A stretch of DNA of 56,425 nucleotides from Bacteroidales bacterium (GCA_007131245.1 SLQX01000213.1:1-56425); one strand, 5' to 3'. Counted from the stretch's first letter, positions 18,788-36,886 are shown. Notes: generated by a model from the letters alone, not told the origin. Program-made: numbers and translations.

Positions 18788-18792
18788 AAACC

Positions 18793-19731
18793 ATGAAAAA
18801 CAATACCCTTACCATCGGCACCCGCGGAAGCCAATTGGCAATGTACCAGGCCAACAGTGTAAAAGAAACCGTGCAGCGGGCACATCCGGACCTACATATT
18901 GAAGTTAAAATCATCAAAACCAAAGGTGATAAAATACTCGATGTGGCACTGTCAAAAATTGGCGATAAAGGATTGTTTACCAAAGAGCTTGAAGTGGAGC
19001 TACTCCAAAACAACATCGACATTGCCGTGCACAGCCTCAAAGACTTGCCCACTCAATTTCCTGAAGGCCTCACCCTGGGAGGGGTATTGCAAAGGGGTGA
19101 ATTTCGTGATGCTTTGGTGCATATAAACGGTAAAAAGCTTGACGAGCTCCATTCGGAAGATGTAGTTGCCACATCAAGTTTGCGCCGTCGTGCATTGCTT
19201 CTAAAACACAACCCCAACCTCAAGATCGTAGATATTCGTGGCAATGTGAATACTCGCTTGCAGAAAATGCAAAACGGCCACTGCACTGCTATGATAATGG
19301 CTGCTGCCGGTTTGCAAAGAGTGGGGCTGGACCACCTTATCACAGAAATTCTGGATCCCGAAAAATTTATTCCCGCTGTCAGCCAGGGAGCCATTGCCAT
19401 GGAAGTCCGAGACCAGGACACCGATTTGTTAAACATCCTGCACCCCGCCATCCATCAACCTACCCTGCAAGCAGTACTTGCCGAAAGAACTTTCCTTCGA
19501 TTGCTGGAGGGAGGATGCCAGGTGCCCATTGGCTGCTTCACACAAATCAAAGACAATCACTTCCGTATCAAAGGCTTTGTTTCCAGCCTCAATGCTGATA
19601 AAGTATTGCTTGAGGAACTCACCGGACACCCGGACCAAAGCATAAAATTGGCTGAGCAGCTTGCAGGCTCTTTTATCCGCAAAGGTTCTGAGCAAATCCT
19701 GGAAGAAATCCGGAACAACAATACCTCTTGA
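18793..19731 (+). CDS. hemC: Porphobilinogen deaminase (hydroxymethylbilane synthase)
   Basis: The protein has 312 aa with IGTRGSQLAMYQA at the N terminus, the arginine-rich SSLRRRALLL loop, and Cys242 in LEGGCQVPIG, which carries the dipyrromethane cofactor. It condenses four porphobilinogens to hydroxymethylbilane. Between hemA (5-base gap) and hemD (2-base gap), consistent with one transcript. Confidence 0.97.
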   Translation: MKNNTLTIGTRGSQLAMYQANSVKETVQRAHPDLHIEVKIIKTKGDKILDVALSKIGDKGLFTKELEVELLQNNIDIAVHSLKDLPTQFPEGLTLGGVLQRGEFRDALVHINGKKLDELHSEDVVATSSLRRRALLLKHNPNLKIVDIRGNVNTRLQKMQNGHCTAMIMAAAGLQRVGLDHLITEILDPEKFIPAVSQGAIAMEVRDQDTDLLNILHPAIHQPTLQAVLAERTFLRLLEGGCQVPIGCFTQIKDNHFRIKGFVSSLNADKVLLEELTGHPDQSIKLAEQLAGSFIRKGSEQILEEIRNNNTS

Positions 19732-19733
19732 TT

Positions 19734-20498
19734 ATGCAGAAGAAAGTCGTCGTTACTACCCAACCCGCCGATCAGGCCCGGGAGATGCTCAGGTTGCTCA
19801 GTCAGCAGGGTTTCCAGGCCTATAACCTCCCCATGATCAAAACGCAAACACGAAAGATATCAGACGACCAAATCAATGCAGTTACTCAACCGGGCCAATA
19901 CCAGCTCTTGGTCTTTACCAGTAAAAAAGGGGTTCGTGGCTTATTTGAAAACCTAATGCAGAGAAAGGCAAGCTATGCTTTAGCTCCCGGCCTTAAAACC
20001 GCTGTTGTGGGGCCCGGCACCCATAGTGAATTGAAGAATTACGGACTGGAAGCCGATTATATCAACCCGGGAAAAACAGCCGAAGACCTGGCAGCATTTT
20101 TACAGGAAAAGGCCATCCAACCCGGTCATAAAGTGTTGCTTGCATTGGGCAACAATGCACCTGACTTTTTGCAAGAAAATCTTGGGCCCAAGGCCAGCGT
20201 ACAAAGGATAAATGTGTACAAAACCATCCCACTACCTGTAACAGATGTAAAAACAGAGCGGTTAATCAGGGAACAAAAGGCAGATTTATGCATATTCACA
20301 TCCCCCTCTGGCTTTCACAATTTTTTGCATATCTTTGGACAGACAAACAAGTTGAAACTGGCAGCCATTGGCTCTACAACAGCTGATGCCATCAGGGAAG
20401 CAGGGTATGACCCCACGGTGATAGCAAACAGTCCCTCTGCCCAATCCCTGGTGCAGGCCATCAATGATTATTTTGCAAAACAAAACAGCAAAACATAA
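19734..20498 (+). CDS. hemD: Uroporphyrinogen-III synthase
   Basis: A frame opens at TTG 19728 inside hemC, but the ATG at 19734, two bases after the hemC stop, is the better start (about 254 aa). It shows the weakly conserved two-domain HemD pattern: [46 protein letters not shown], and [12 protein letters not shown]...[17 protein letters not shown]. It closes and inverts ring D of hydroxymethylbilane. Assignment rests on both motifs and its position between hemC and hemB. Confidence 0.93.
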
Positions 20499-20505
20499 CA
20501 AACCT

Positions 20506-21492
20506 ATGCACTTCCCCGTCACCCGCCTGAGAAGACTCCGGTCACACCCTGTTATCCGTTCCATGGTAAACGAAACCACGCTATCGCCAGACAACCTGGT
20601 GATGCCATTATTTGCCTGCCCGGGCGAACAGGTAAAAAATCCTATCAGTTCCATGCCCGAGCAGTTTCAGCTCTCCATCGATTTGCTGGTGGAAGAATGC
20701 AAAGTACTTTATGGGTTGGGAATCCGCTCAGTGCTTCTGTTCGGCATTCCTGAAAGCAAAGATGAGCATGGCCTTACGGGAGCCCACGAGGATGCCATCA
20801 TACCCAGAGCCATTCGGGCTATCAAAAAAGAGGTTCCGGAAATGTATGTTATAGCTGATGTTTGCAACTGTGAATATACCAGCCACGGCCACTGCGGAAC
20901 TATCGTTAACAATGATGTGGACAACGATCTTACCCTGGAAACCCTGGCCAGGCAAGCGGTTGTCTTTGCCAAAGCGGGGGTTGACATGGTAGCACCCAGC
21001 GATATGATGGACGGCAGGGTAGCCAGGATTCGCGAATCGCTTGACAGGGAAGGTTTTAGCCAAACACCCATCATGGCCTATTCGGCCAAATATGCGTCAG
21101 CTTTTTACGGACCTTTTCGCGAAGCCGCAGACAGTGCACCCCAGTTTGGTGATCGCCAAACCTACCAGATGAACCCGGCCAACAGCAACGAAGCCATGCG
21201 CGAAATCGAACTTGACATAGAAGAGGGGGCCGACATCATCATGGTAAAGCCTGCATTATCCTACCTGGATATCATACAACGGGCCAAAGACAACTTTAAC
21301 ATCCCCATTGCTGCATACAATGTAAGCGGAGAGTTTTCTATGGTAAAAGCTGCCGCCGAAAAAGGCTGGATTGACGGGGAACGTATCACCTTAGAAATCC
21401 TAAAATCCATCCGCCGTGCCGGAGCAGATATCATTCTTACTTATCATGCCAAAGAAGTAGCAAAATGGTTGGTAAATGAAAAAAAAATATGA
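20506..21492 (+). CDS. hemB: Delta-aminolevulinic acid dehydratase (porphobilinogen synthase), zinc type
   Basis: The frame extends 42 bases upstream into hemD, but the ATG at 20506 (7 bases after the hemD stop) gives the usual start, [11 protein letters not shown], and 328 aa. Zn-ligand cysteines 120, 122 and 130 ([14 protein letters not shown]) mark the zinc-dependent class. Schiff-base lysines are Lys195 ([15 protein letters not shown]) and Lys248 ([10 protein letters not shown]). It joins two aminolevulinates into porphobilinogen. It ends the first heme transcription unit. Confidence 0.97.
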
Positions 21493-21549
21493 CCATAATC
21501 TAAAACCTGAACCCAACTTTTTCCCGGTAAGGAGTTATTGCAATTTTCA

Positions 21550-21557
21550 TAAGTTTG
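21550..21557 (+). promoter_or_regulatory. Possible -7 element for hemLE
   Basis: TAAGTTTG matches TAnnTTTG exactly and lies 36 bases before the hemL ATG in a 100-base gap. I found no good -33 box at the usual spacing, so this is weak. Confidence 0.3.
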
Positions 21558-21592
21558 TATCCTAAAATGAAATCTTAAAACTTCTACAAAAT

Positions 21593-22882
21593 ATGAATTA
21601 CAACAATAGTATACAAGAATTTGACAGAGCCAAACAATCGCTACCCGGCGGTGTGAACTCCCCGGCGAGAGCCTTTCGCAGTGTGGGAGGCAATCCCCCA
21701 TTTATTGCCAAAGCCAAAGGTGCCCGCATGTGGGACATCGATGGCAATGAATACATTGATTACGTATCGTCATGGGGACCCATGATCGTTGGACATGCCG
21801 ACGACCGCGTAATTGCGGCACTTAAAGATGCGGCCCAAAGAGGCACCAGCTACGGAGCACCCACGGTGGGCGAAACCGACATGGCTGAGCAGATCAAAAA
21901 GATGAAACCCTCTATGGAAATTGTACGCATGGTGAACTCCGGTACCGAGGCTACCATGAGTGCTTTGCGCCTTGCACGCGGCTATACGGGAAGAGACAAA
22001 TTCATAAAGTTTGAAGGATGTTATCATGGCCATGCCGACAGTTTCCTTATCAAGGCCGGCTCAGGAGCTATGACATTGGGCCTTCCCGACAGCCCTGGTG
22101 TTACAAAAGGTACAGCACAGGATACCCTCACAGCCAAATACAACGACCTTGATGGTGTGGCTGCACTGTTTGAAAAGCACGGCAATGATATTGCCGCTGT
22201 AATTTTAGAACCTCTGGCAGGAAACATGGGTGTCATTGTTCCCGACAAAGAATTCCTGGAGGGACTGAAAGGTCTTACCCAAAAATATGGGTGCCTTCTG
22301 ATTTTTGACGAGGTAATGACAGGGTTCCGTTTGGCCAAAGGTGGAGCTCAGGAATATTTCGGAGTAACCCCTGATATCACTTGTCTGGGAAAAATTATCG
22401 GTGGAGGTCTTCCCGTGGGAGCCTATGGTGCATCCAAAGAAATCATGGAAAAAGTGGCCCCCACCGGACCCGTTTACCAGGCAGGTACATTATCGGGAAA
22501 CCCTTTGGCAATGGCTGCCGGGCTGGCTACTCTTCAAATCATTGATCAGACGCCTGACTTTCACAAGAACCTGGAAGAAAAATCGGCCCGACTGGAAAAA
22601 GGTTTGCAGGAAAACCTCAAACAAACCGGACACAAAGGTGTTATAAACAGAGTTGGATCCATGATAACCCTTTTCTTCACCGAGTTAAACCAGGTGAAAT
22701 CATATGATGATGCCAGTGAGAGTGATACCGAAAAATTTGGCCGGTATTACCGCCTTATGCTGGAACAGGGCATTTACCTGCCCCCATCACAGTTTGAAGC
22801 AGCATTCGTGGTGGGATGCATCACCAACGAAGAAATTGACAAAACACTGGATGCCAGCCTTAAAGCATTAAAACAACTTTAA
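21593..22882 (+). CDS. hemL: Glutamate-1-semialdehyde 2,1-aminomutase
   Basis: The protein has 429 aa and is a class-III PLP aminotransferase relative. It has [16 protein letters not shown] at the N terminus, a [16 protein letters not shown]-phosphate region, [10 protein letters not shown], and Lys267 in [16 protein letters not shown] as the PLP lysine. It converts glutamate-1-semialdehyde to 5-aminolevulinate, using the HemA product. hemE follows after 9 bases. Confidence 0.97.
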
Positions 22883-22891
22883 AACACTTTA

Positions 22892-23920
22892 ATGTCTGAT
22901 ATTTTTCTTGATACCCTGAAAGGTAAAAGCACTCATCGCCCGCCTGTATGGTTTATGCGCCAGGCGGGCCGTGTGCTCCCCTCCTACCTTGCCCTGAAAG
23001 AGCAATACACTTTCTGGCAAATGATGAAAGACCCGGAATTGGCAGCCCGGGTAACGCTGCTGCCCATCGATGATCTGGGTGTGGATGCCGCCATTTTGTT
23101 TTCTGACATACTGGTTATCCCTTATGCCATGGGCATGGGGCTTGACTTTACAGATCAAGGCCCTGTTTTTGAACAGCCCCTTAAGGATACCAACAACCCC
23201 TTGCAACGGCTAAATCCTGATGCCCAAAAACTCCAGTACATTTACAATGCCATTGACAAAATCCTGGAAACACCGGGCAATGACAAACCGCTCATTGGCT
23301 TCTGCGGTGCCCCTTTGACAGTAATGCTATTTATGTTGCAGGGACTGGGCACAAAATCCAACTTTACAGATGCTGAAAAGTTCTTTTTCAGAGAAAAAGC
23401 ACTCACACGGAAAATTGCCGATGCAGTAACAGAGCTTACAATACATTACGCCCTTCAGCAGGTAAAACATGGAGTGTCTGCCTTTCAGCTTTTTGACACC
23501 CATGCAGGTATTGTTCCTTTCACCTTTTACCAGGAAGTGTTCATGCCGTCGGTGAAAAAAATTGCTGATGCCGTCAGGAAAACCGGTACACCATTTATCT
23601 TTTTCCCAAAAGGAATTGGCACGGGCATCCAATCCATCAACCACGATACATGTGATTTTATGAGTGTGGATTGGCAAACAAACCTTTACACCGCCCGCAA
23701 GCTGGTGGATAAGAATGTAGGACTGCAGGGCAACCTTGACCCAAGAATCCTGTTTGCCTCGCGCGACACCATTCGTAAAGAGCTTTACAGCTTCATCCCG
23801 TTCCACCAACAGGAATCCAAATGGATTTTCAACCTGGGGCATGGACTTGTGCCAGGCATCCCCGTTGAAAACGTAAAATTTGTGGTGGACTTCATTAAGC
23901 AAGTTCACTGGGAGTCCTGA
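22892..23920 (+). CDS. hemE: Uroporphyrinogen decarboxylase
   Basis: The protein has 342 aa with the signature RPPVWFMRQAGRVLPSYLALKE near the N terminus, AILFSDILVIPYAMGMG, GFCGAPLTVMLFMLQG, and QLFDTHAG. It decarboxylates the four acetate side chains of uroporphyrinogen III to give coproporphyrinogen III. It is co-directional with hemL and probably in the same unit; the next gene, hemN, has its own promoter candidate. Confidence 0.97.
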   Translation: MSDIFLDTLKGKSTHRPPVWFMRQAGRVLPSYLALKEQYTFWQMMKDPELAARVTLLPIDDLGVDAAILFSDILVIPYAMGMGLDFTDQGPVFEQPLKDTNNPLQRLNPDAQKLQYIYNAIDKILETPGNDKPLIGFCGAPLTVMLFMLQGLGTKSNFTDAEKFFFREKALTRKIADAVTELTIHYALQQVKHGVSAFQLFDTHAGIVPFTFYQEVFMPSVKKIADAVRKTGTPFIFFPKGIGTGIQSINHDTCDFMSVDWQTNLYTARKLVDKNVGLQGNLDPRILFASRDTIRKELYSFIPFHQQESKWIFNLGHGLVPGIPVENVKFVVDFIKQVHWES

Positions 23921-23975
23921 TTTCCTAAAAAAGCTGCAATCAATGTCTCAACCAATCCAGAATTCAGACTCCTGG

Positions 23976-24007
23976 CTTGTGGCAAACAGGTTAATTTTAT
24001 ACTTTTG
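23976..24007 (+). promoter_or_regulatory. Predicted promoter for hemN
   Basis: CTTG (23976-23979) lies 20 bases before TACTTTTG (24000-24007), an exact TAnnTTTG match with ideal spacing. It would start transcription about 90 bases upstream of hemN, separating it from hemLE. Confidence 0.5.
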
Positions 24008-24105
24008 CTTAAATGCAAAGATTAAGTGGTGCAATACAAACCAACACAATCATTGTATCATTGGGTCCAGCCCGGAATCATTGTTGTCTTCCATAAACCG
24101 TCATC

Positions 24106-25476
24106 ATGAACACAGACGTTCTTCAAAAATATAATAAACCAGGCCCCCGTTATACCAGCTATCCGCCGGCCACTTTTTTCCATGAAGGGGTAAATACAGA
24201 AAATTACAGGAATATGGTGGTTCATTCCAACCATGATCATCCTGAAAACATCTCCATATATATCCATATCCCTTTTTGTAAAAAATTCTGTTTTTTCTGT
24301 GGATGCAATACCAGCAGCTATCCCCACCATGAAATGCTGGAAAAATACATTGATGCACTCATCAGGGAGATAAAAGCCGTTTCCGCCTTGTTGGATACCT
24401 CTCGCCCTCTGACCCAAATACACTGGGGTGGTGGAACCCCCAACGCTATCGATCCGGGTTGGGTAAAAAAGGTTATGGATGTGCTCCTGCACACGTTCAG
24501 GCCCTCCCCAAAAGCAGAAATTGCCATGGAGTGCAATCCGGCTTACCTTGAACTTGAAGACATTGACCAGCTTGCCGCAATGGGGTTCAACAGACTAAGC
24601 CTTGGTATTCAGGATTATGACCAACATGTACTGCAACTGGTTAACCGCGAACCATCCCTTCACCCTCTTGAAAAGGTTGTTGCACGGATGAAGCAAAACA
24701 ACATGGAAGGTGTAAACCTGGATTTGATCTATGGCCTGCCGGGTCAAACCCCGGAGTCGTTCCAAAACACGGTGAAACAGGCACTGGAAATCTCACCCGA
24801 CAGGTTGGTCACTTTTTCTTACGCCCATGTTCCCTGGGTAAAATCTGCCCAAAAAAAACTTGAAGAATCAGGACTTCCAACTGCGGAGGAGAAGCTGGCC
24901 ATGTTTGAAGTAGCTTATAACCTGCTGACCCAAAACGGTTATACAGCCATTGGTATGGACCATTATGCAAAACCCAAAGATGAACTTGCAATAGCATTGA
25001 AAAACAATAACCTGCACCGCAATTTCCAGGGATATTGCACACGCGAAACCACCGGCCAGGTATATGGCTTTGGTGCTACTTCCATCAGCCAGCTACAGGG
25101 CGGCTATTATCAAAACCACAAAGACATCAACGATTATATCGAAGCCATCAATCAAAATGGATTTGCCACAGTAAGGGGCTATGAGCTAAGCCCCAAAGAT
25201 ATTATCAGGCGAACTATTATCAATGAAATAATGTGCAACGGATATCTCAACTTCCCCCAAATTGCCTCACGGTATCAAATAAGCACCCATGAACTGAAAA
25301 GCCTGGTAGGATTCAACGAAGAAAAGCTAAAGCCATACATTGATGATGGATTGCTGCAACTAAAAGAAGATAGCCTGGAACTCCTGGAAAATGGGTTTCT
25401 GGTAGTACGCAATATTGCCATGGAGTTTGATCCTTTGCTGGAACAAAGCAAAGGACAATACTCCCGAACGGTTTAA
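24106..25476 (+). CDS. hemN: Oxygen-independent coproporphyrinogen III dehydrogenase
   Basis: The protein has 456 aa. The radical-SAM cluster motif is CX3CX2CXC (Cys58, 62, 65, 67, in IPFCKKFCFFCGC), the form found in true HemN rather than the heme chaperone HemW. N-terminal GPRYTSYPPA and a C-terminal HemN_C domain are both present. It oxidatively decarboxylates two propionates of coproporphyrinogen III without oxygen. It sits between two gaps with promoter candidates, so it may be expressed separately. Confidence 0.96.
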   Translation: MNTDVLQKYNKPGPRYTSYPPATFFHEGVNTENYRNMVVHSNHDHPENISIYIHIPFCKKFCFFCGCNTSSYPHHEMLEKYIDALIREIKAVSALLDTSRPLTQIHWGGGTPNAIDPGWVKKVMDVLLHTFRPSPKAEIAMECNPAYLELEDIDQLAAMGFNRLSLGIQDYDQHVLQLVNREPSLHPLEKVVARMKQNNMEGVNLDLIYGLPGQTPESFQNTVKQALEISPDRLVTFSYAHVPWVKSAQKKLEESGLPTAEEKLAMFEVAYNLLTQNGYTAIGMDHYAKPKDELAIALKNNNLHRNFQGYCTRETTGQVYGFGATSISQLQGGYYQNHKDINDYIEAINQNGFATVRGYELSPKDIIRRTIINEIMCNGYLNFPQIASRYQISTHELKSLVGFNEEKLKPYIDDGLLQLKEDSLELLENGFLVVRNIAMEFDPLLEQSKGQYSRTV

Positions 25477-25576
25477 CCTATCTGTAAATACCGGCAAAAA
25501 CAATCACGGTTCTATATCTTTTGAAAAAGACACGGACACCAAACAACAATTTTCTGTTTTATCAACCCTGCTAAAG

Positions 25577-25606
25577 GTTGTCATGTTTCAATAAACTTTA
25601 TCTTCG
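25577..25606 (+). promoter_or_regulatory. Predicted promoter for hemY-hemH
   Basis: GTTG (25577-25580), 18-base spacer, TATCTTCG (25599-25606). The -7 sequence equals that of the hemA promoter candidate. The start would fall about 35 bases upstream of the hemY ATG. Confidence 0.4.
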
Positions 25607-25647
25607 TAGGGTTGTATTGTCTATAAGCAACAACAAAAACCAGCCAG

Positions 25648-27030
25648 ATGCCCAAAAAAGAATCCATACACACATTAGTCATCGGAGCCGGTCTTACCGG
25701 CCTTAGCACAGCTCACTACCTGAAAAAAGCAGGAATCCCTTTCATGGTTCTTGAGCAAAACGCAAAACCCGGGGGAGTGATACAGACTGTTACCGAAAAT
25801 GGATTCACCTATGAGCTGGGGCCCAATACGGGTGTCATTGGAAGCAGTGAAATTGCAGAGCTATTTGAAGATCTGGAGCCATATTGCCAGCTGGAAACTG
25901 CCAACGAAAACGCCAAAAAGCGTTACATCCTAAAAAAAGGAAAATGGGAGCCCCTTCCCTCGGGGGTATTGGAAGGCATCAAAACCCCCCTGTTCTCCCT
26001 GAAAGATAAATTCAGATTGCTGGGAGAGCCCTTTCGTAAAAAAGGGAAAAACCCACACGAAACGCTTGCAGAGCTTGTAAAACGGCGTATGGGGAAAAGC
26101 TTTCTGGATTATGCAGTGGACCCTTTCATCATTGGCGTTTATGCCGGTGACCCGGACAACCTGGTACCCATGTATGCCCTCCCCAAGCTCTATAATTTGG
26201 AACAAAACTATGGCAGTTTTATTGGGGGAGCCATCAAAAAACAAATGGAGAAAAAAACCGAATGGGAAAAAAAAGCAACCCGTAAAGTATTTTCAGCCAA
26301 AGGCGGTCTTTCCAGGCTCACCAGCGCACTTTACACCCATGCGGGTAAAGAGAATTTCACTTTTAATGTAAAGCAACTTCAGGTGATGCCCGAAAATGTT
26401 GCATACAGGGCCAGGTGGCAGTTATCGGGTGACAAATATGAAATCAGGGCCAAAAATGTGGTTTTCACGGGCGGATCCTTCAACCTGCAGGGACTGTTTC
26501 CTTTCCTGGATGAAGAAAAGATAAAAAATATCACCAACCTGCACTATGCAAAAATTATAGAAGTCACCCTGGGTTTTAAAAACTGGCAAGGGATCAATCT
26601 GGATGGCTTTGGAGGATTGATACCCTCCAGGGAGAAACGGAAAGTACTGGGAGTCCTGTATATGTCAACCCTTTTCAGTGGACGGGCACCCGATGGGGGA
26701 GCTTTGCTGACAGTATTTATGGGGGGTGTAAGAAATAAAGCCCTGTCAGAGCTGCCAGATGACCAAATCCGCAAAATTGTAAAAGATGAAATATCCAACC
26801 TGATGAAGCTACCGGAATTTAAGCCGGACCTTTTGAAAATAACCCGCTACGACTATGCCATCCCCCAGTATGAAGCAAACAGCGGTGTAAGATTTGATAC
26901 CATACGGTATTTTGAAAACCAGTTTCCCGGTCTTTTACTGGGAGGCAATATGCGTGATGGGATTGGCATGGCCGACAGGGCCAAACAGGGAAAAAGGCTC
27001 GCACAAAGAATCATAGGAAACCAAAAATGA
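25648..27030 (+). CDS. hemY: FAD-dependent protoporphyrinogen/coproporphyrinogen oxidase (HemY type)
   Basis: The protein has 460 aa. The N-terminal FAD-binding motif GAGLTGLSTAHYLKKAG is followed by PGGVIQT and FTYELGPNT, as in the HemY family. The middle part has DPFIIGVYAGDP and FSAKGGLSRLTSAL; the C terminus has PGLLLGGNMRDGIGMADR. The expected reaction is six-electron oxidation of protoporphyrinogen IX to protoporphyrin IX. In Gram-negatives this follows HemN; coproporphyrinogen oxidation is the alternative activity of related enzymes. Its stop overlaps the hemH start by 4 bases (ATGA). Confidence 0.93.
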   Translation: MPKKESIHTLVIGAGLTGLSTAHYLKKAGIPFMVLEQNAKPGGVIQTVTENGFTYELGPNTGVIGSSEIAELFEDLEPYCQLETANENAKKRYILKKGKWEPLPSGVLEGIKTPLFSLKDKFRLLGEPFRKKGKNPHETLAELVKRRMGKSFLDYAVDPFIIGVYAGDPDNLVPMYALPKLYNLEQNYGSFIGGAIKKQMEKKTEWEKKATRKVFSAKGGLSRLTSALYTHAGKENFTFNVKQLQVMPENVAYRARWQLSGDKYEIRAKNVVFTGGSFNLQGLFPFLDEEKIKNITNLHYAKIIEVTLGFKNWQGINLDGFGGLIPSREKRKVLGVLYMSTLFSGRAPDGGALLTVFMGGVRNKALSELPDDQIRKIVKDEISNLMKLPEFKPDLLKITRYDYAIPQYEANSGVRFDTIRYFENQFPGLLLGGNMRDGIGMADRAKQGKRLAQRIIGNQK

Positions 27031-28040
27031 ATAAAACAGCTATCATTTTATCCAATACGGGTACCCCAGACGACGCATCTGTGGCAGCTGTCAGGCGTTA
27101 CCTCAAACAGTTCCTTGGAGACAAAAGGGTAATTACCATGCCGGCATGGCTCCGAAAACTCCTTGTCAATGGCATCATTGTACCTTTCAGGGCTCCTAGA
27201 TCAGCCAGGCTTTACCAAAAAGTATGGACAGAGAAAGGCTCTCCCCTGTTGTCGTATTCCCAAAGCCTCAGGCAAAAACTGCAACAACAATTGGGAGATG
27301 AATTTGATGTTTTGCTGGGCATGCGTTACGGAAACCCCTCCCTGGAAAGTGCACTGCAAACCGTTCAGCAAAAGAACTACCCCAACCTTATCCTGGCACC
27401 CCTATTCCCCCAGTATGCATCTTCAACAACAGGCTCCATCACTGAGCTGGTTCATCATACCCTGCACAAGTGGAACAATATTCCTGCGTTGAAAACCATC
27501 GCCCCTTTCTTTGAGAATGAAAGGTTCATTGAAAATGTCGCAGAAAATATTCGCAAAAACAATCCTGACAACTACCAGCATATCCTTTTCAGCTATCATG
27601 GGCTGCCCCTTCGCCATCTGCGTGCCACCCACCAGGGTAAAGACTGCACCCATTTTCATTGCACAAAGGAAATGAACCACCAGAATGTGTTTTGCTACCA
27701 GGCAGCATGCTATGCAACCACAAAGCTGCTGGCACGCAAATTGAATCTCAGGGAAAGTGATTACTCCGTTTGTTTCCAGTCACGTTTTTCAACAAGCTGG
27801 CTCTCTCCCTTTACCGATGAAGTGATAGTAAAAAAAGCCAGACAGGGTGTTACATCCCTGCTTATTACCAGCCCCTCATTCGTAACCGATTGCCTGGAAA
27901 CCATTATTGAACTGGGAGATGAATACAAATCCCTTTTCCTGGAGAACGGTGGCCAGGAATTTCAATGGGTTGAAAGCCTCAACGATCAAACAAACTGGGT
28001 GTCAACCCTTAAACACCTTATACTAAATGACGTTAAATAA
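27027..28040 (+). CDS. hemH: Ferrochelatase
   Basis: The protein has 337 aa with the catalytic His191 in LFSYHGLP and the conserved CFQSRFSTSWLSPFTDE and SPSFVTDCLETIIEL segments. A cysteine-containing stretch, CTHFHCTKEMN...CYQAACYATT, follows the active-site His. It inserts Fe2+ into the porphyrin, the last step to protoheme (or to coproheme in the alternative route). Its ATG overlaps the hemY stop, indicating translational coupling. Confidence 0.95.
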   Translation: MNKTAIILSNTGTPDDASVAAVRRYLKQFLGDKRVITMPAWLRKLLVNGIIVPFRAPRSARLYQKVWTEKGSPLLSYSQSLRQKLQQQLGDEFDVLLGMRYGNPSLESALQTVQQKNYPNLILAPLFPQYASSTTGSITELVHHTLHKWNNIPALKTIAPFFENERFIENVAENIRKNNPDNYQHILFSYHGLPLRHLRATHQGKDCTHFHCTKEMNHQNVFCYQAACYATTKLLARKLNLRESDYSVCFQSRFSTSWLSPFTDEVIVKKARQGVTSLLITSPSFVTDCLETIIELGDEYKSLFLENGGQEFQWVESLNDQTNWVSTLKHLILNDVK

Positions 28041-28998: not shown

Positions 28999-29406
28999 AT
29001 GGTAAAAATCTTTGATGCTTCTGTTTCGGCTTTCAAAACGCACTTATCTCTTCTTATCTTACGATTGGGGATGGGAGCCCTCATGCTGACCCACGGCTGG
29101 CCAAAACTGATGCGTTTGTTCAGCGGTGAAGAAATCACCTTCCCCGATCCCCTGGGCCTGGGAAGTACTTTCTCCCTGGTGCTGGCTACCCTTGCCGAAG
29201 TGCTGGGTTCGTTGATGGTAATGTCCGGACTGGCAACACGGCTGGCGGCTTTTTCGCTCATTTTTACCATGGGGGTGGCCGTATTTATTGTCCATGCCAA
29301 CGACCCTTTCAGTTATAAGGAGCTTGGGCTGGTCTACCTGATAGGATTCATAGCATTGTTTATTACCGGTGCTGGTAAATACTCCCTTGACAGGTTGATA
29401 AGGTAA
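28999..29406 (+). CDS. DoxX-family membrane protein
   Basis: The protein has 135 aa and four predicted helices with the family pattern LLILRLGMGALMLTHGWPKLMRLFSG near the N terminus, and GSLMVMSGLATRLAA and FIALFITGAGKYSLDRL further on. DoxX proteins are small inner-membrane proteins linked in various species to quinone/thiosulfate or redox homeostasis; the role here is not fixed by context. It starts 18 bases after the lipoprotein stop and ends before a strong hairpin. Confidence 0.88.
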   Translation: MVKIFDASVSAFKTHLSLLILRLGMGALMLTHGWPKLMRLFSGEEITFPDPLGLGSTFSLVLATLAEVLGSLMVMSGLATRLAAFSLIFTMGVAVFIVHANDPFSYKELGLVYLIGFIALFITGAGKYSLDRLIR

Positions 29407-29537: not shown

Positions 29538-31781
29538 TTATTCGATACTATAGCGTAACCCCAGGTAGAACATGCGTCCCATGATGGGTCCCCATATCCG
29601 CGAAGCATCAAAATGCTCACCGAAAGGTTCTTGAGCAGCAATAATAGGATTGTCCTGCTTAAAGTTGGTTAGATTTTCGCCCCCTATATATAAATCAAAG
29701 CTATTCCAGCGACGGGTGATTTGTCCGTGTAAAATGGTATAAGCAGGAGATTGTGCAGGCATTCTGAACTCTCCGGGCAGCTCCTCTGCTCCAGGAATCC
29801 GGCTTTTGCCATTGAACTGTGCAGTAAGATCTACCTGCCAGTTATTGTTGCGCGACAGCCACGAACCTGAAAGCATACCTGTGTGGTTATTGACAAAGGG
29901 TTTACTCAACAAATCACCATCAATAGTGGTTTTCACATCCGTAAGTCTGAAGGCAGCGGTTATTTCCAAAAACAACAAGGGTTCGAATTTGAGCTCAACC
30001 TGCGAATTGTTAGCATAGGATTTTCCATCCAGATTGTAAAACCGCGCTGCTCCATATTGCGAATCCACATCCACTATCAATTGATTTAGAAAATCAGTCC
30101 GGTAATATTCAAGAGCCAGTGAGGCATCCCTGCCCAACATAAAAAACGATTGTGTAACACTCCCCCCGTAGTTCCAGGCTTCCTCGGCATTAATCTCCTC
30201 TTCAAAAATCAACTGGCGGTTGCTCACCAGCAAACCTGTGTTTTCAGCAATTTTGCTGGGCACCCTGTAGCCTTTTCCAACCGATGCTCTCAGGGTTGTT
30301 GTGGGAGATAGGTTGGTGCGGGTATGAAGGCGGGGCGTCACAAAAGTTCCATGCAGGTTGTGAAAATCGGTCCGCAAACCCACTATCCCCACAAACACAT
30401 CCTCAAAACTGTAAGTATACTGACCAAAAATACCGGGAACAGACTCGGTACGATCCAGGTTGGTGTCATCATATAAGCGTTCACGATAATCATCCCAGAT
30501 GTAACTCACACCAGCACTCAGCATATGGTCAGGGTCATTGCCAATGGAGTTTTCATAAATGATATTGGCATATAACGTATTTTGGCGGGCCTTGTAATTA
30601 TTAAGACCATATTGGGCATCGTGGTTGTGGTGAATAAAACTCAGCTGGGTTCCGATGCTGCCATCAGGCTGTCCGGGGAGAAAAAACCCGGTACGGGCAA
30701 ATGCCTCATAGCGGTCTGTATTTACACCAAACCCGTAATAGTCGGTATTCCCAAACTGTGAACCATTTTCAAAAAATGATAATTGCCCACCGCGGCGATC
30801 CTCCTGCATTACCCGAAAACCAAATTGAGACTCCATCACCCCAGGTAGATCATAGCGATAACGGTTCACAATATTGTATTTACGCAAAAGGGGATGATCC
30901 AAAAAAGAATTCTCGTTGTGATCAAACTTGTTTTCCAGGATTTCACCGTGAGCCATCACCATGGTTGACCACTGGTCATTCAAGCGCACTGCTGAGTTGA
31001 TAGTACTTTCCAGACGGCCGAAGTCATTGCCGTAAAAGTTGTAATAAAAAAGATCGGAAGCTTCGGGTTTTCTCAGCTCAACATTTATTTGGCCTGTAAT
31101 CGATTCATATCCGTTTACAACACTCCCTGCACCCTTGGAGACATGAATGCTTTCCATCCATGGCCCGGGAATAAAACCGAGTCCATAGGGTTGGCCTAAA
31201 CCTCGTATGGTAGGTGTGTTTTCAGTCAATATTTGGCTGTAAATACCCGCAAGCCCCAAAAGTTCGATCTGCTGTGCACCAGATACAGCATCCGTAAATG
31301 AAACATCCACAGAAGCATTGGTTTCAAAAGCTTCTGACAGATTGCAGCAGGCTGCCCGCTGGAGTTCATCTTCGGTAATGACATTGGTATAAATGGGTTC
31401 AATGGATGAAACATGACTTCCTGACTTACGGCTGGAAACTACCACTTCGTCCAGTTGTTTGGATGAAACCAGCACTACATCCAGGTTTCTTTGTGCGGAC
31501 TCAACCCAAATGGTGTCTGACTGATACCCCATAAAGCTAACTACTAACCTGTGGGGTAAATCAACACTGGTATTGAGCTGAAAAACACCATCTCCATTGG
31601 TTGCCGCACCTTGTGTGGTTCCAAGCCAAACTACATTGGCTCCGGCCAATGGCGTTTTATCAGCTCCTGCTTCACCAGATCCACCAAACACCTGCCCGCT
31701 TATGTTGTCATCAGGGCCAATTGCAAAGGCAGTATTCCATATAAAAATAAGAGAAAGTGAGATTATCTTTATTGTATTCAT
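29538..31781 (-). CDS. TonB-dependent outer-membrane receptor (metal-associated type)
   Basis: The protein has 747 aa. A signal peptide ends near FAIG. A carboxypeptidase-regulatory-like domain (about 28-110) precedes the plug (about 125-235, with RAACCNLSEAFETN and QIELLGLAGIYSQILTENTP) and a 22-strand type barrel ending in an aromatic-rich FYLGLRYSIE. The NLSEAFETN-type plug recurs in Bacteroidota receptors encoded with HMA and HYC_CC_PP proteins, which suggests copper or another soft metal, free or chelated. It is the last gene of the leftward metal operon, 100 bases after the small HMA protein. Confidence 0.9.
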   Translation of the reverse strand: MNTIKIISLSLIFIWNTAFAIGPDDNISGQVFGGSGEAGADKTPLAGANVVWLGTTQGAATNGDGVFQLNTSVDLPHRLVVSFMGYQSDTIWVESAQRNLDVVLVSSKQLDEVVVSSRKSGSHVSSIEPIYTNVITEDELQRAACCNLSEAFETNASVDVSFTDAVSGAQQIELLGLAGIYSQILTENTPTIRGLGQPYGLGFIPGPWMESIHVSKGAGSVVNGYESITGQINVELRKPEASDLFYYNFYGNDFGRLESTINSAVRLNDQWSTMVMAHGEILENKFDHNENSFLDHPLLRKYNIVNRYRYDLPGVMESQFGFRVMQEDRRGGQLSFFENGSQFGNTDYYGFGVNTDRYEAFARTGFFLPGQPDGSIGTQLSFIHHNHDAQYGLNNYKARQNTLYANIIYENSIGNDPDHMLSAGVSYIWDDYRERLYDDTNLDRTESVPGIFGQYTYSFEDVFVGIVGLRTDFHNLHGTFVTPRLHTRTNLSPTTTLRASVGKGYRVPSKIAENTGLLVSNRQLIFEEEINAEEAWNYGGSVTQSFFMLGRDASLALEYYRTDFLNQLIVDVDSQYGAARFYNLDGKSYANNSQVELKFEPLLFLEITAAFRLTDVKTTIDGDLLSKPFVNNHTGMLSGSWLSRNNNWQVDLTAQFNGKSRIPGAEELPGEFRMPAQSPAYTILHGQITRRWNSFDLYIGGENLTNFKQDNPIIAAQEPFGEHFDASRIWGPIMGRMFYLGLRYSIE

Positions 31782-31881
31782 TTTTTTCAGTATTTAATTT
31801 GTTGTGTTAAAAATTCGGTCGTACTATCAACCAAACGATGTGTATCCCCAGACTGGCAATTGACAACAGAAATACAACCCG

Positions 31882-32094
31882 TTAATTTTGTGACAGTTTA
31901 TAATCACCAAGGTTTTCCAACAAGTCATTCATAGTGTGAAGTGAAGGCTGCGGTTCTGCTTCAATTTTCATAACACTTTCATGGTACATCACCCCAACAT
32001 GGACTACGGCGTCAAGGTTTTCAACAGCTTTCTTCACCTTGTTTACAGAATGTTGGCAATGCAGGCCTGTTATTTTATACTGTTTTACTGACAT
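31882..32094 (-). CDS. Small HMA-fold protein with CxxS in place of CxxC
   Basis: The protein has 70 aa and the betaalphabeta-betaalphabeta pattern of Atx1/CopZ-type metallochaperones: KYQ-like first strand YKITGLHCQHSVNKVKKAVENLDAVVHVGV, then VMKIEAEP and a last helix. The metal motif GMxCxxC is GLHCQHS (Cys13, Ser16), so one of the two thiol ligands is missing; His12 or His15 could substitute. Length and fold are otherwise normal. It is cytoplasmic (no signal peptide) and lies between a periplasmic HMA protein gene and the TonB receptor gene, same strand. Confidence 0.8.
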   Translation of the reverse strand: MSVKQYKITGLHCQHSVNKVKKAVENLDAVVHVGVMYHESVMKIEAEPQPSLHTMNDLLENLGDYKLSQN

Positions 32095-32153
32095 GACTTT
32101 CAGATTTAAATTTCAAACAATTGGATTTCACAGAACACATCAAAACAGAGCCC

Positions 32154-32549
32154 TTAGTCTTCATTGTATAGCTTGTTGTTTTCCAACATTTCAGACTCTC
32201 TCTCATAGATACAGCAATGGTGCAGATTGCTATGGGTTTCATCGTCCGTAATAAAGTTTTCGGTATCATGTCCAGCTTCGGCAATGGCCCTTTCAATGGA
32301 TTCTTGATCCGTGCGGCTAGTACGATAAACCACAGTGATTTTCTGTTCCTGCTGGTTCCAATCGGCACGGCGCACACCTCTTACTGTAAGGGCGGCCCGC
32401 TCAATCCGATCCTTGCACATTCCACAATTGCCCAATACAGTAAATTCTACTTCTTCAGAGTTGCGCCCCTGGGCTGCGGTTTCATTTGTAAATTGAAAAA
32501 ATATGGCAAACAACGCCATGATAGCTATTAGATTAACTTGCGATTTCAT
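32154..32549 (-). CDS. Exported heavy-metal-associated (HMA) domain protein
   Basis: The protein has 131 aa. An N-terminal hydrophobic signal (IAIMALFAIFFQF...AAQG) suggests export. The HMA domain follows, VEFTVLGNCGMCKDRIERAALTVRGVRRADW, with the intact CxxC at Cys42/Cys45. After the domain comes a second possible metal site, HSNLHHCC (106-113), then an acidic helical tail. It should bind a soft metal such as Cu+ in the periplasm. It ends 59 bases before the small HMA gene. Confidence 0.83.
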   Translation of the reverse strand: MKSQVNLIAIMALFAIFFQFTNETAAQGRNSEEVEFTVLGNCGMCKDRIERAALTVRGVRRADWNQQEQKITVVYRTSRTDQESIERAIAEAGHDTENFITDDETHSNLHHCCIYERESEMLENNKLYNED

Positions 32550-32757
32550 TTTTATCTAATTTAAAGGGTTTGTGAATTTTGTATAAGTTGTTTCATAATG
32601 ATGTATCTCATTACAGGATGGCTTAAAGGTGGCTATCAAGTATTTCTTACTTTTCAAGCCCGGGATGTCCACCTGGTAGGTGTATCCATACCATCATAAT
32701 CCGGCCAAAACGGCAGGGAGTTCCTGGTGTTTCAGTATCCTTGTGTCTGAAACAAAC

Positions 32758-33234
32758 TTATACTACACAGTCAATCTTGAGCTGGCGGGTAAAAATCAGG
32801 AAAGAAATGCCTGTTCTCCGCGGAGGTGGCGCATGGGCATAGTAAAAAGCAGATGTAATATTTTGCTCAGGGGAAATATTCAAAACCTCGGAAGAATCAG
32901 CCTGCAGTAAATCTGTTTCCACCAAAGTGATTTTTGCTTTTTCAAGAACAATACTTTCTTCGAGGGAGAGGAAGTAGCTTTCCAACTCACAGCAGTCATC
33001 ACTACACTGCATCGGTTGTTCTTCTTCGGGCAAGGTACAACATGTTGCTGCGGTCTTTGACAGATCACAGGCACCATCATCTTCGCAACAGGTATCGGCA
33101 TCATCACTCAAGGCAAAATGCGAAGTTTGACAGGTAAGACAGGAATGCTGTATGAGATTCACCCCATTACTGTAAGTCCAGAAAACCGGCAACAGTAACA
33201 ATGTCATTATAATATGTGCAAAACGCCCTTTCAT
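32758..33234 (-). CDS. HYC_CC_PP-type cysteine-rich exported protein
   Basis: The protein has 158 aa with an N-terminal hydrophobic helix, then ten cysteines between residues 32 and 82: HSCLTC, TCC, C56, TCC (65-66), C77 and CC (81-82). A beta/helical linker follows, then a proline-rich APPPRRTG near the C terminus. This matches the HYC/CC/PP motif family of Bacteroidota, found beside HMA proteins and TonB receptors. Metal binding is inferred, not shown. It is the first gene of the operon. The promoter candidate lies so close that the leader would be only a few bases if the ATG at 33234 is used; the ATG at 33207 is an alternative. Confidence 0.78.
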   Translation of the reverse strand: MKGRFAHIIMTLLLLPVFWTYSNGVNLIQHSCLTCQTSHFALSDDADTCCEDDGACDLSKTAATCCTLPEEEQPMQCSDDCCELESYFLSLEESIVLEKAKITLVETDLLQADSSEVLNISPEQNITSAFYYAHAPPPRRTGISFLIFTRQLKIDCVV

Positions 33235-33647
33235 CTATCGTACAAAGATAGTTATATTTATGCATTGGTCAACAATCTGAAAACAGTATTAATATTTTTT
33301 CTAAAAAATCTGATTCATAAAAGTCCGTATCACCTTTTGTTAAGCAGACCTCTGTAAAAAATATCTTAAGGCTTCGTGGATTGCTGTTAATTACAACATC
33401 TTTAAACACCAAAGTGTCTTCTTGGTTTAACCAAACTTAACTTTATCACGAAGAAACAAATAAAGCCGGGTGATGTTTAAGAAACTGCAACACATTCTTT
33501 AACAATAACATTTATTTAAGAAATGAAATAACAAAGGATTATTAATACAGGACATACTAATTTCGTTGTATGACGGTTTCATAAGAAAGCAGAGACCGGG
33601 TGGGTTGTGTAATATGCTCTGTGTAAATCCAGAAAAATCACCAAAGC
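33235..33647. other. Intergenic region between divergent metal operon and TonB receptor gene
   Basis: About 410 AT-rich bases. The left end holds the metal operon promoter. TAATTTCG at 33558-33565 is a one-mismatch -7 candidate for the rightward receptor. No metal-regulator palindrome or RNA gene is convincing. Confidence 0.5.
33243..33273 (-). promoter_or_regulatory. Predicted promoter for the metal operon
   Basis: Read on the minus strand: GTTG (33273-33270), 19-base spacer, TATCTTTG (33250-33243), an exact -7 match. The transcript would start about 2-6 bases before the ATG at 33234, giving a nearly leaderless mRNA. Confidence 0.5.
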
Positions 33648-36002
33648 GTGCAAAAATTAATTTTACCCTTATTCATCCTCCTCCTCTTGGCCGGGAAATA
33701 CGGGATTGCCCAGCAATCAGTATTAACAGGTACGGTAAAAGATGCTGGCAACCAGGAATACCTGCCGGGTGTTAATGTGCTTATCCAGGACAGTGAGCAA
33801 GGTACAGTAACGGATAAGGATGGCAAATTTCGACTGACACTCAGCCAGGGAGCGCACACCATTGTTTTTTCGTTTATTGGTTACCAAAGGCTGGAAAAGA
33901 CCATCGTTGTGGAAGATGCAGAATACCAACTTGATGTAGCCCTGGGTAACGGAGGCATTAGTTTGACAGAGGTGGTGGTTGAGGCAGACAGAAGACGTGG
34001 CAATGTGGAGAGAGCAGGTATGAGCACCATCCGTCTCGACATGGAAAATATTCGCAACATCCCGGCTTTTTTGGGGGAGGTCGACGTGTTGCGTACAATT
34101 CAGTTATTACCCGGGGTACAATCTGCCGGTGATGGGAATACAGGTTTTTTTGTGCGGGGTGGTAATGCTGATCAGAACCTTGTATTACTGGATGATGCAG
34201 TGGTTTTCAACGCATCCCATCTTTTCAATTTCTTTTCAGTATTCAATGCTGATGCTGTTAAAGACCTCCAGCTATACAAAGGGGGTATTGATCCCGAGTA
34301 TGGAGGCCGACTTTCTTCGGTTTTGGATATTCAGTCGCAAGACGGAGACATGGATCAATACAAAATGAATGGCGGAGTAGGACTTATCTCCAGCCGCTTA
34401 TCCCTCCAGGGGCCTATTCAGCGTGGACGAAGTGCCTTTTTGGTCACAGGCAGGCGCACTTATGCAGACCTTTTCCTCAAGTTCTCTTCTGATGAGAACC
34501 AAAGAAATACACAGCTTTTCTTTTACGATCTCAATGCCAAACTCAACTATGTGATTGATGATAATAACAGGTTGTTTTGGTCGGGATATTACGGGCGAGA
34601 TGTAACAAAATTCAATGAACTATTTGGGTTTGACTGGGGCAATGCCACCAGCAGTTTAAAATGGAACAGGATCTTTACCGAGCAACTGTTTGCTAACTTT
34701 TCCTTTCTCTATAGCAATTACCAGTTTAACATCTCCGGAGATATTGGTCCGGCAAAATTTCGATGGAACTCTGCGCTGCATAATCTCAAACTAAAAGCAA
34801 GTTTCACCCTCCTGGCAACCGACAACAACACCCTTTCTTTTGGGGCCGAATCCATCTATCACCAGCTTGACCCCGGCATCATACGGGCAAGTATAGAAGA
34901 AGCAGCAGCTACAGAATTAGAGCTTTCGCCCAACAATGGCCTTGAACATGGTGCTTTTATCAACAATGAACACGACCTTTTCAATAATAAGCTTTTATTG
35001 GAATACGGGGTGAGGATGGCTGCATTCCAGGTCATAGGTCCGGGTAAGCAATATACTTTTGACAGCTCAGATCCACTTCGCTGGAAAGTACAAGACACCC
35101 TGGAGCTGGAAAAGGGTACATTTTATGACACCCATATAGCTATTGAACCCCGGGTTAATGTTCGTTATAAGATAAATGAACAAAGCTCACTGAAGGCAAG
35201 CTACAACAGGATGACCCAGTTTGTCCAGCAGGCGCAAAGCGCTCAGTCAGTAGCCCCTTATGATGTATGGTATACCGTGAGCAACAACATTCCTCCCCAA
35301 AGCGCCGACCAAATTGCACTGGGATATTTCCGAAACTTTTTTTCGGACCAGTTGGAATCGTCGTTGGAGTTTTATTACAAAGACCTGAAAAATATATCAG
35401 ACGTGGTGGATAATGGTGACATCCTGGGGAATGAGCTACTGGAAGGCCAATTGAGGGTAGGCAAAGGCTGGGCCTATGGAGCCGAGTTTTTACTGCAAAA
35501 GGAAACGGGTCCCATTAGTGGGTTCCTGGGCTATACCTGGAGTGTTTCAAAACGCAAAATTAATGACATCAATGAAGGGAGAGCCTATTACGCACCCAAC
35601 GACCGCCGGCACGACCTAAGCCTCTCGGGCAGCTATCACCTGACACCCAAATGGAACATCGGGATGAGTTTTATTTATGCATCAGGCACCGCCTATACCC
35701 TGCCGGTGGGCAAAATGTCTTTCCAGGGAGCCTTTGCTCCAATTTATGCCGAGCGAAATGCCAGTCGACTACCGGATTATCACCGACTTGACCTTTCTGT
35801 AACCTACACACCCAATCTCAGAGACAGGGACAACAGACGGTTTGAAAGTAGCTGGAATTTTTCCTTGTTCAACGTCTACGGAAGAGTAAACCCCATTTCG
35901 GTTTCCTTTGCAGAAAGAGACAACGAACCAGGTGTACCCAATTCATCGTTTTTTTATATTCCCGGACCTATCCCCGCCATCACCTGGAATTTTAACTTCT
36001 AA
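33648..36002 (+). CDS. TonB-dependent receptor with carboxypeptidase-like N-terminal domain
   Basis: The protein has 784 aa. It starts with GTG at 33648, directly before a signal peptide (MQKLILPLFILLLLAGKYGIAQ); no ATG is suitably placed. Residues 24-110 are a CarboxypepD_reg-like domain (LTGTVKDAGNQEYLPGVNVLI), followed by the plug (IRNIPAFLGEVDVLRTIQLLPGVQSAGDGNTGFFVRGGNADQNLVLLDDAVV) and the barrel, ending ITWNFNF. It forms a pair with the DUF4249 lipoprotein 14 bases downstream, a recurrent Bacteroidota arrangement different from SusCD. The imported substrate is unknown. Confidence 0.92.
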   Translation: MQKLILPLFILLLLAGKYGIAQQSVLTGTVKDAGNQEYLPGVNVLIQDSEQGTVTDKDGKFRLTLSQGAHTIVFSFIGYQRLEKTIVVEDAEYQLDVALGNGGISLTEVVVEADRRRGNVERAGMSTIRLDMENIRNIPAFLGEVDVLRTIQLLPGVQSAGDGNTGFFVRGGNADQNLVLLDDAVVFNASHLFNFFSVFNADAVKDLQLYKGGIDPEYGGRLSSVLDIQSQDGDMDQYKMNGGVGLISSRLSLQGPIQRGRSAFLVTGRRTYADLFLKFSSDENQRNTQLFFYDLNAKLNYVIDDNNRLFWSGYYGRDVTKFNELFGFDWGNATSSLKWNRIFTEQLFANFSFLYSNYQFNISGDIGPAKFRWNSALHNLKLKASFTLLATDNNTLSFGAESIYHQLDPGIIRASIEEAAATELELSPNNGLEHGAFINNEHDLFNNKLLLEYGVRMAAFQVIGPGKQYTFDSSDPLRWKVQDTLELEKGTFYDTHIAIEPRVNVRYKINEQSSLKASYNRMTQFVQQAQSAQSVAPYDVWYTVSNNIPPQSADQIALGYFRNFFSDQLESSLEFYYKDLKNISDVVDNGDILGNELLEGQLRVGKGWAYGAEFLLQKETGPISGFLGYTWSVSKRKINDINEGRAYYAPNDRRHDLSLSGSYHLTPKWNIGMSFIYASGTAYTLPVGKMSFQGAFAPIYAERNASRLPDYHRLDLSVTYTPNLRDRDNRRFESSWNFSLFNVYGRVNPISVSFAERDNEPGVPNSSFFYIPGPIPAITWNFNF

Positions 36003-36016
36003 AACAAGCTACCGAT

Positions 36017-36886
36017 ATGAATAACATGTACAAAACAACGACCACACTTTTAGTAGCTTTAGCAGGCCTGTTTATTATAAACGCCTGTGAAAAAGATGTT
36101 ATCCTGGATCTTGCAGATACAGAGGGTGCTTATGTGATTGTGGAGGCCCACATAACCAATGACGGTCGACGTCAATGGGTAAAGCTATCCCATTCTTCGT
36201 CATACTATGACAGGGGTTTTGGAGATCCGGTGTCCGGCGCAGAGGTTAAAATTGAAACCCACGATGAAGTATTTACCTTTAGCGAATCGCTGTACGACAG
36301 TCTGGCCGGATTTTATTACCATGATGAGATAAGTGAAATATTACATGACTCTGTGCTCTATACTTTGAACATTACAAAAAAAGATCAGGTATTCACAGCA
36401 GAAAGTTTACTCAAACCAGTACCACAGCTGGATTCTGTAACCCTTAAAATCAATCCCTTCAGTGAGCAGGGGATAAACACCGATACCGTGTATGATATAA
36501 TGGCTCACTTCCATGATTTACCAACTGAAGATAATTTTTACCTGTTCAATTACTACGTGAATGACACCTTAAGAACTGAAAGGCCCGGGCAAAAAGGTCT
36601 GGTAAGTGATATTAACCTGGAGGAGTATGTCTCTTTTGCCGTATTGAGTATCAACCAAAACAGGATAAAAGATGGAGATAGAATCACACTGGAAATAAGT
36701 AGCATCTCAGGAGAGATGTTTGAGTTTTACGATGTGTTCTTTTTCCAGACCAACCTATCAGGAAATCCCTTTGCCGGAGCCCCCCCGGCCAATATACCCA
36801 CCAATTTGAGCGAGGGAGCTCGTGGTTTTTTCCAGGTGTCAGCACTCAACCGCAAACATGTTGTTTATGAAACCATTCCCTTTTAA
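36017..36886 (+). CDS. DUF4249 lipoprotein, partner of the TonB receptor
   Basis: The protein has 289 aa with a lipobox at LFIINAC. The family opening CEKDVILDLADTEGAYVIVEAHITND is clear, followed by DPVSGAEVKIETHDEVFTF and a beta-rich body. DUF4249 proteins are expected at the outer membrane beside a TonB receptor and may help bind or deliver the ligand; biochemical function is not known. It starts 14 bases after the receptor stop, so the two are probably one transcript. Confidence 0.88.
   Translation: MNNMYKTTTTLLVALAGLFIINACEKDVILDLADTEGAYVIVEAHITNDGRRQWVKLSHSSSYYDRGFGDPVSGAEVKIETHDEVFTFSESLYDSLAGFYYHDEISEILHDSVLYTLNITKKDQVFTAESLLKPVPQLDSVTLKINPFSEQGINTDTVYDIMAHFHDLPTEDNFYLFNYYVNDTLRTERPGQKGLVSDINLEEYVSFAVLSINQNRIKDGDRITLEISSISGEMFEFYDVFFFQTNLSGNPFAGAPPANIPTNLSEGARGFFQVSALNRKHVVYETIPF

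Follow-up and report, generated by a model that had tools for sequence, protein, structure and literature searches.

A candidate copper-sensing leader and its TonB-dependent receptor module in Bacteroidota

What does a small, cysteine-rich exported protein of the HYC_CC_PP type do at the head of an operon that ends in a TonB-dependent receptor? The question is raised by a 56,425-nt stretch of DNA from a Bacteroidales bacterium (GCA_007131245.1, SLQX01000213.1:1-56425; hereafter the window), whose minus strand encodes an HYC_CC_PP-like protein, an exported HMA-domain protein, a second HMA protein without signal sequence and the receptor (Table 1). A first-pass annotation had placed these four open reading frames (ORFs) correctly and read them as a metal-handling operon relaying a soft metal such as copper from the surface to the cytoplasm. 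Metal handling, copper as the likeliest metal and a hand-off from surface to periplasm are retained here. The HYC protein is more likely to act in cis, as a leader that senses copper, than to be a link in that relay, given its motif spacing, the gap behind its gene and the stem predicted there. We favor, with confidence slightly above even, a copper-responsive operon for outer-membrane copper uptake equipped with such a leader.

Leader anatomy and the structured gap after the HYC gene

The window HYC protein has a hydrophobic N-terminus, a QHSCLTC motif, Cys-Cys pairs at residues 49-50, 65-66 and 81-82, PPP at 136-138 and a tail that ends in QLKIDCVV. HxC (30-32), CC (65-66), CC (81-82) and PP (136-138) follow the N-terminal hydrophobic segment in the order of the HYC_CC_PP pattern, and the motifs, with their Cys and His residues, are conserved in 112 homologues. 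The protein itself has no match at E ≤ 0.1, whether to the NCBI model of the family (NF047658) or to Pfam, and does not reach the NCBI curated cut-off; same-slot orthologues in other genomes of the genus pass it. We count the protein as HYC-type because of its motifs and these orthologues. The sole NF047658 match in the host genome is a gene on another contig, C2.

Spacing between the last CC and PP is narrow, 54-58 residues in 57 of 75 HYC proteins and 52-61 in nearly all loci outside the survey, whereas the distance from HxC to the last CC varies from about 29 to 75 residues (10th-90th percentile). PP lies a median of 20 residues from the C-terminus, deeper than in CutF. An export signal, a Cys metal motif and a C-terminal PP at fixed spacing are likewise the anatomy of CutF (PMC9973294) and CruR (PMC9426467), short exported proteins which carry a Cys motif for copper binding and control the next gene while they are being translated. 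DUF2946 (PF11162) matched none of 15 HYC members scanned and no gene recognized as HYC in the relatives' genomes, where one weak match fell on a different leader in genome G056. In three HYC-less loci the slot is filled by another Cys-rich exported protein, ending in QPPRLG, HPPKF or WQPPKIV, one of them with a weak DUF2946 match. C-termini of HYC proteins encoded before RND pumps are much alike (..IQVFLI, ..LYQTFLI, ..LDETYLI), about 17 residues past PP, and differ from the HQLKIC tail found before receptors. A literature search by family name found nothing that attaches a function to HYC_CC_PP.

The gap after the HYC gene is the longest of the operon. Its fold z is -2.74, with 0 of 100 shuffles equally stable, whereas the remaining two operon gaps are unstructured (z +0.15 and +1.62). 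In the predicted fold, stem I joins the HYC stop region to a segment ahead of the exported HMA gene, and the HMA start codon is enclosed by the two arms of outer stem II. Set against all arm swaps, pairing of the window's own stem I arms falls in the top 4% by row and the top 0% by column.

These features recur beyond the window. HYC genes stand first, second or third in their operons, and the gap behind them is usually the longest regardless of the gene that follows (median 82 nt vs 31 nt for other gaps). Mean fold z after HYC is -2.64, compared with -0.92 in 110 co-directional control gaps of similar length (P 1e-10), a set that probably includes terminators and would therefore be conservative. 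Pairing between stop region and start region is likewise stronger than in controls (z -1.52 vs -0.19, P 4e-11). Swapping arms between 81 loci weakened the pairing from a mean of -16.2 kcal/mol for own arms to -10.2, compared with -12.0 and -9.9 kcal/mol in control gaps, which is what compensatory divergence would give. A further 35 HYC loci gave the same pairing result; 17 of these precede RND pumps, and HYC-CusA pairs are among them. Duplexes between the HYC coding tail alone and the start region are weakly better than shuffles; the effect sits around the stop codon. Rfam returned no match. We read HYC as a leader because of its CC-PP spacing, the long following gap and the structured RNA in it, which is predicted to mask the start of the next gene as the stem behind CutF does.

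Table 1 Features of the operon in the window; gene starts were called mechanically.
Feature	Position	Strand	Details
Promoter-like TATCTTTG, Bacteroidota -7 type TAnnTTTG	33250-33243	-	16 nt before HYC start; from sequence
HYC_CC_PP-like exported protein (putative leader)	33234-32758	-	158 aa ORF
Outer stem II, 5' arm, AGCTCAAGATTGACT	32783-32769	-	Last HYC codons; minimum-free-energy fold, predicted
Stem I, 5' arm, TATAAGTTTGTTTC	32762-32749	-	Spans HYC stop codon; pairs with 32594-32582
Gap after HYC gene	32757-32550	-	208 nt, structured; gap statistics and fold
Stem I, 3' arm, GAAACAACTTATA	32594-32582	-	Upstream of exported HMA start codon; arm-swap test and fold
Exported HMA-domain protein	32549-32154	-	131 aa; signal sequence, GNCGMC, C-terminal CCIYER
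Outer stem II, 3' arm, AGTTAATCTAATAGCT	32538-32523	-	Early codons of exported HMA gene; minimum-free-energy fold, predicted
HMA protein without signal sequence	32094-31882	-	70 aa
TonB-dependent receptor	31781-29538	-	747 aa, ACCNLSEAFETN; CarbopepD_reg_2 domain, plug, barrel
Vicinal Cys145-Cys146 codons, receptor plug	31349-31344	-	Invariant in 89-row alignment

TATCTTTA or a near form of it lies ahead of the module in five genus relatives, and scans for sigma-70 promoters and terminators gave no clear excess over shuffles.

The receptor module and its copper context

The receptor was found in 43 of 59 relatives and in at least 589 confirmed stretches of GTDB genomes. In a survey of 121 receptor loci, 109 with enough sequence for the HYC count and 101 counted for HMA, an HYC gene is one of the three genes preceding the receptor, in the same orientation, in 100 of the 109, and an HMA gene adjoins the receptor in 53 of the 101 or is fused to its N-terminus in 15. 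Judged by gene content, the module is a conserved set found across Bacteroidota, its recurrence being far beyond chance. Altogether, 20 receptor homologues have an HMA domain at the N-terminus, before the CarbopepD domain, which supports the earlier proposal of a surface-to-periplasm hand-off. The fusions are clustered on the tree, where three changes suffice, and in close relatives without the fusion the gene order is HYC-HMA-receptor, the arrangement that a fusion would need. The exported HMA protein of the window (PF00403, 28.1 bits against a gathering cut-off of 24.8) has an intact CGMC site and is presumed to be the periplasmic copper acceptor.

At the cytoplasmic end of the previously suggested relay, the HMA domain of the 70-aa protein is confirmed (PF00403, 33.4 bits against the same cut-off), but half of its CxxC metal site is gone in the host genome, where it reads CQHS; relatives retain CxxC, and a cytoplasmic HMA protein is often absent from the module. 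The CQHS of this protein (31882-32094) is one base from TGT, and natural loss and assembly error would look alike.

A model of the receptor from a deeper alignment (pLDDT 92.9) is that of an ordinary TonB receptor with plug and barrel, in agreement with its Pfam matches to CarbopepD_reg_2 and Plug. Fold comparison gave VIA Z scores of 30-34 to Cir, BtuB, FecA and OprC, so that the fold does not identify the substrate; transporters of iron, cobalamin, zinc and copper rank alike. A search of PDB sequences with the receptor returned distant siderophore, colicin and SusC-type receptors only, and plasmids likewise hold distant homologues only. What sets the receptor apart is an Ala-Cys-Cys in the plug, the Cys-Cys of which is present in 120 of 121 homologues and not in the nearest solved receptor, 9gbc.

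The module is likely to concern copper because its relatives and the other HYC genes keep copper-gene neighbors. In Dyadobacter, Runella, Siphonobacter, Spirosoma and several metagenome-assembled genomes it is mixed with at least one of a CopA-type ATPase (over cut-off), a multicopper oxidase, HMBD, a Csp1-like protein and an HMA-AraC regulator. A neighborhood survey of HYC_CC_PP genes, which the first-pass annotation had proposed, found them co-located with copper genes, CusA-type pumps and this receptor. Among the 44 NF047658 matches in 118 newly sampled genomes of the phylum, 18 directly adjoin the receptor (coordinate-matched), and most of 29 HYC neighborhoods contain the receptor, a CusA-type pump or HMA. 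Other HYC genes mostly precede CusA-type pumps, further copper genes or this receptor. Copper is therefore the likeliest metal, as suggested before. In two related Bacteroidales loci (L066 and L084), the gene immediately ahead of the HYC-receptor module is of the FeoB type.

No P-type ATPase or RND pump lies within the window, as noted earlier, but the host genome has a second copper locus of efflux type on contig C2 (L061:7645-11348), with its own HYC_CC_PP gene, an HMA-AraC fusion regulator, an exported HMA protein, an HMA-MauE membrane protein and, truncated where the contig stops, a His-rich P1B ATPase. No operator common to this locus and the module was evident by eye, no motif search having been run. 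The absence of efflux genes had been taken as an argument against detoxification; with copper ATPase, multicopper oxidase, HMBD and HMA-AraC genes beside the same module elsewhere, that absence says little about direction.

Two candidate reasons for copper import were rejected. NosZ was found in 1 of 59 genomes. Within the family the exported HMA protein at the receptor locus tracks COX1 of the heme-copper oxidase (15/16 vs 3/11, P 6e-4), a correlation that fails on independent pairs and is not independent of descent; many receptor-bearing genomes also have no COX1.

Several observations concern the surroundings of the module. A divergent TonB receptor (784 aa) and a DUF4249 protein lie beside it in the window (33648-36886). 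A divergent receptor of the same size (782-814 aa) occurs there in several other genomes of the genus, as does a DUF4249-like gene where the sequence extends that far; the arrangement was not found in the other genera inspected. Just past the operon is a near-complete heme biosynthesis cluster (17537-28040; hemA, hemC, hemD, hemB, hemL, hemE, hemN, hemG and hemH, names assigned by sequence inspection rather than family search), and between the two a DoxX protein (28999-29406) has a sub-threshold match to the HvfX copper-RiPP maturation family (62 vs 80 bits). Copper loci elsewhere encode His/Met-rich exported proteins of 447-501 aa that share SLSLPMNRNGSGT (L094:10388-11893, L118:10483-11883 and L121:9755-11098), the one in L118 without a Pfam match.

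Proposed mechanism and competing explanations

By analogy, HYC_CC_PP looks like a copper-sensing leader of the CutF/CruR type rather than a metal carrier. It would act mainly during its synthesis, when the emerging Cys motifs may bind copper, and a pause close to the stop codon would be tuned by Pro-Pro and the C-terminal tail while these lie inside the ribosome tunnel, as proposed on the model of CutF and CruR. A ribosome paused at the end of HYC would open the stem between the HYC stop region and the next start, permitting translation of the next gene, and its departure would let the stem close; copper at the emerging Cys motifs would alter the pause. Downstream, the TonB receptor would move copper, free or chelated, into the periplasm, as its fold and copper neighbors suggest. 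The exported HMA protein may then take the metal at the receptor's inner face, a transfer suggested by the fusion of the two observed in other lineages. Import is what the modeled TonB-receptor fold would imply.

The sign of control may be read either way. CutF acts in cis through a stem over the next gene's start, and copper promotes its pause (PMC9973294); CruR, encoded ahead of a TonB copper transporter, works through Rho termination, and copper relieves its pause (PMC9426467, PMC12914433). The same leader and stem before CusA-type exporters slightly favor a pause promoted by copper, as in CutF, whereas a TonB receptor as partner is reminiscent of CruR and its copper-relieved pause. The type of HYC tail may set the sign.

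Several points weigh against this scheme. A single leader before importers and exporters fits either sign of control, and the case is sequence-based throughout, copper response, binding and transport all being predictions. A weaker own-arm effect is present in control gaps too, and for 12 gaps aligned with MAFFT RNAalifold returned 0 shared pairs, so that the case for covariation rests on the swap test. The fixed CC-PP spacing could instead mark a folded domain. The window protein, at 158 aa, without DUF2946 match and with PPP about 20 residues from its end, falls outside the filters used for CutF-like proteins. Finally, many receptor-bearing relatives have no heme-copper oxidase and nearly all have no NosZ, which leaves a need for imported copper unexplained.

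Three other explanations were weighed against a sensing leader. A plain copper relay, in which HYC is a stable exported copper binder followed by the exported HMA protein, the receptor and the cytoplasmic HMA protein under ordinary transcriptional control, would account for the conserved Cys and His residues of HYC, the HMA-receptor fusion and the copper-gene neighbors. It leaves the long gap after HYC, the locus-specific stem, the fixed CC-PP spacing and the HYC genes before exporters unexplained, and its cytoplasmic member is often missing and, in the window, degenerate; we consider it rather unlikely. Alternatively, the module may serve tolerance instead of nutrition, being induced by copper, with the receptor retrieving or re-importing chelated copper so that it can be oxidized in the periplasm and exported. 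Its position beside CopA, multicopper oxidase, HMBD and HMA-AraC genes in Cytophagales, the HYC leaders before CusA-type pumps and the retention of the receptor in genomes without heme-copper oxidase or NosZ are in line with this, but TonB receptors are mechanistically importers and the module holds no efflux gene in the window's family, which makes tolerance improbable in our view.

That the metal is another one, iron, zinc, nickel or a further soft metal, is least probable, and we give it very little credence. FeoB in L066 and L084 would fit iron, the fold comparison ranks the respective transporters alike, and the CusA/CzcA family model cannot split copper from divalent metals; yet an adjoining FeoB is rare, and copper-specific families dominate the neighborhoods.

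Beyond the copper-sensing leader of the window, we tentatively extend the scheme to the phylum, with confidence falling somewhat short of even. HYC_CC_PP proteins would constitute phylum-wide metal-sensing arrest leaders apart from DUF2946 that control copper importers and exporters via a start-masking stem. They would be paired with an undescribed class of copper TonB receptors with a Cys-Cys plug that carries a periplasmic HMA acceptor, in some lineages in the same chain. Outer-membrane copper entry is known for a few Proteobacterial receptors only, and for Bacteroidota we found nothing beyond gene lists. If the scheme is true, one locus yields a class of receptors together with the periplasmic acceptor and a switch, and the so far unexplained family HYC_CC_PP gains a function testable with reporters. 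It also raises the question of how a single leader design serves importers and exporters.

Comparison with known leaders and copper receptors

No description of this combination of leader, HMA protein and receptor was found in the literature. The regulatory idea has precedent, since the list of CutF-like proteins given by the CutF authors includes Bacteroidota proteins and TonB-like neighbors (PMC9973294). According to a survey of RAPP/RGPP arrest peptides, those related to copper are absent from Bacteroidota, which fits an HYC leader with a different motif. Compared with the NCBI family HYC_CC_PP (NF047658), the window protein shares the HxC, CC, CC, PP pattern and scores below the model.

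CutF-CutO of Rhodobacter capsulatus shares with the window an exported leader, a Cu motif, a C-terminal PP and a stem covering the next start, CutF acting in cis. It differs in its next gene, a multicopper oxidase, and in its leader, which is of the DUF2946 family; the filters for CutF-like proteins, which ask for <150 aa and PP within the final 15 residues, would not catch the window HYC protein (PMC9973294). The CruR-CrtA(BfrG)-PepSY operon of Bordetella pertussis likewise has a small exported Cys/Pro leader before a TonB copper transporter and a long gap after the leader. CruR, however, belongs to DUF2946, its CXXC-RAPP motif lies three residues from the C-terminus and its control is Rho-dependent; CrtA lacks a conserved Cys, and an HMA partner is absent (PMC9426467, PMC12914433). 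The window instead combines an HYC-family protein whose PP stands about 19 residues before the C-terminus, a stem around the start of the following gene, an invariant Cys-Cys in the receptor plug and an exported HMA protein that is adjacent or, elsewhere, fused.

Among receptors, OprC and NosA (PMC8610252) are TonB receptors linked to copper, and OprC has the same fold as the window receptor (VIA Z about 30). Their CxxxM-HxM site is absent from the window receptor, whose sole cysteines are Cys145 and Cys146, neither with Met at +4; it has the Cys-Cys pair in the plug instead.

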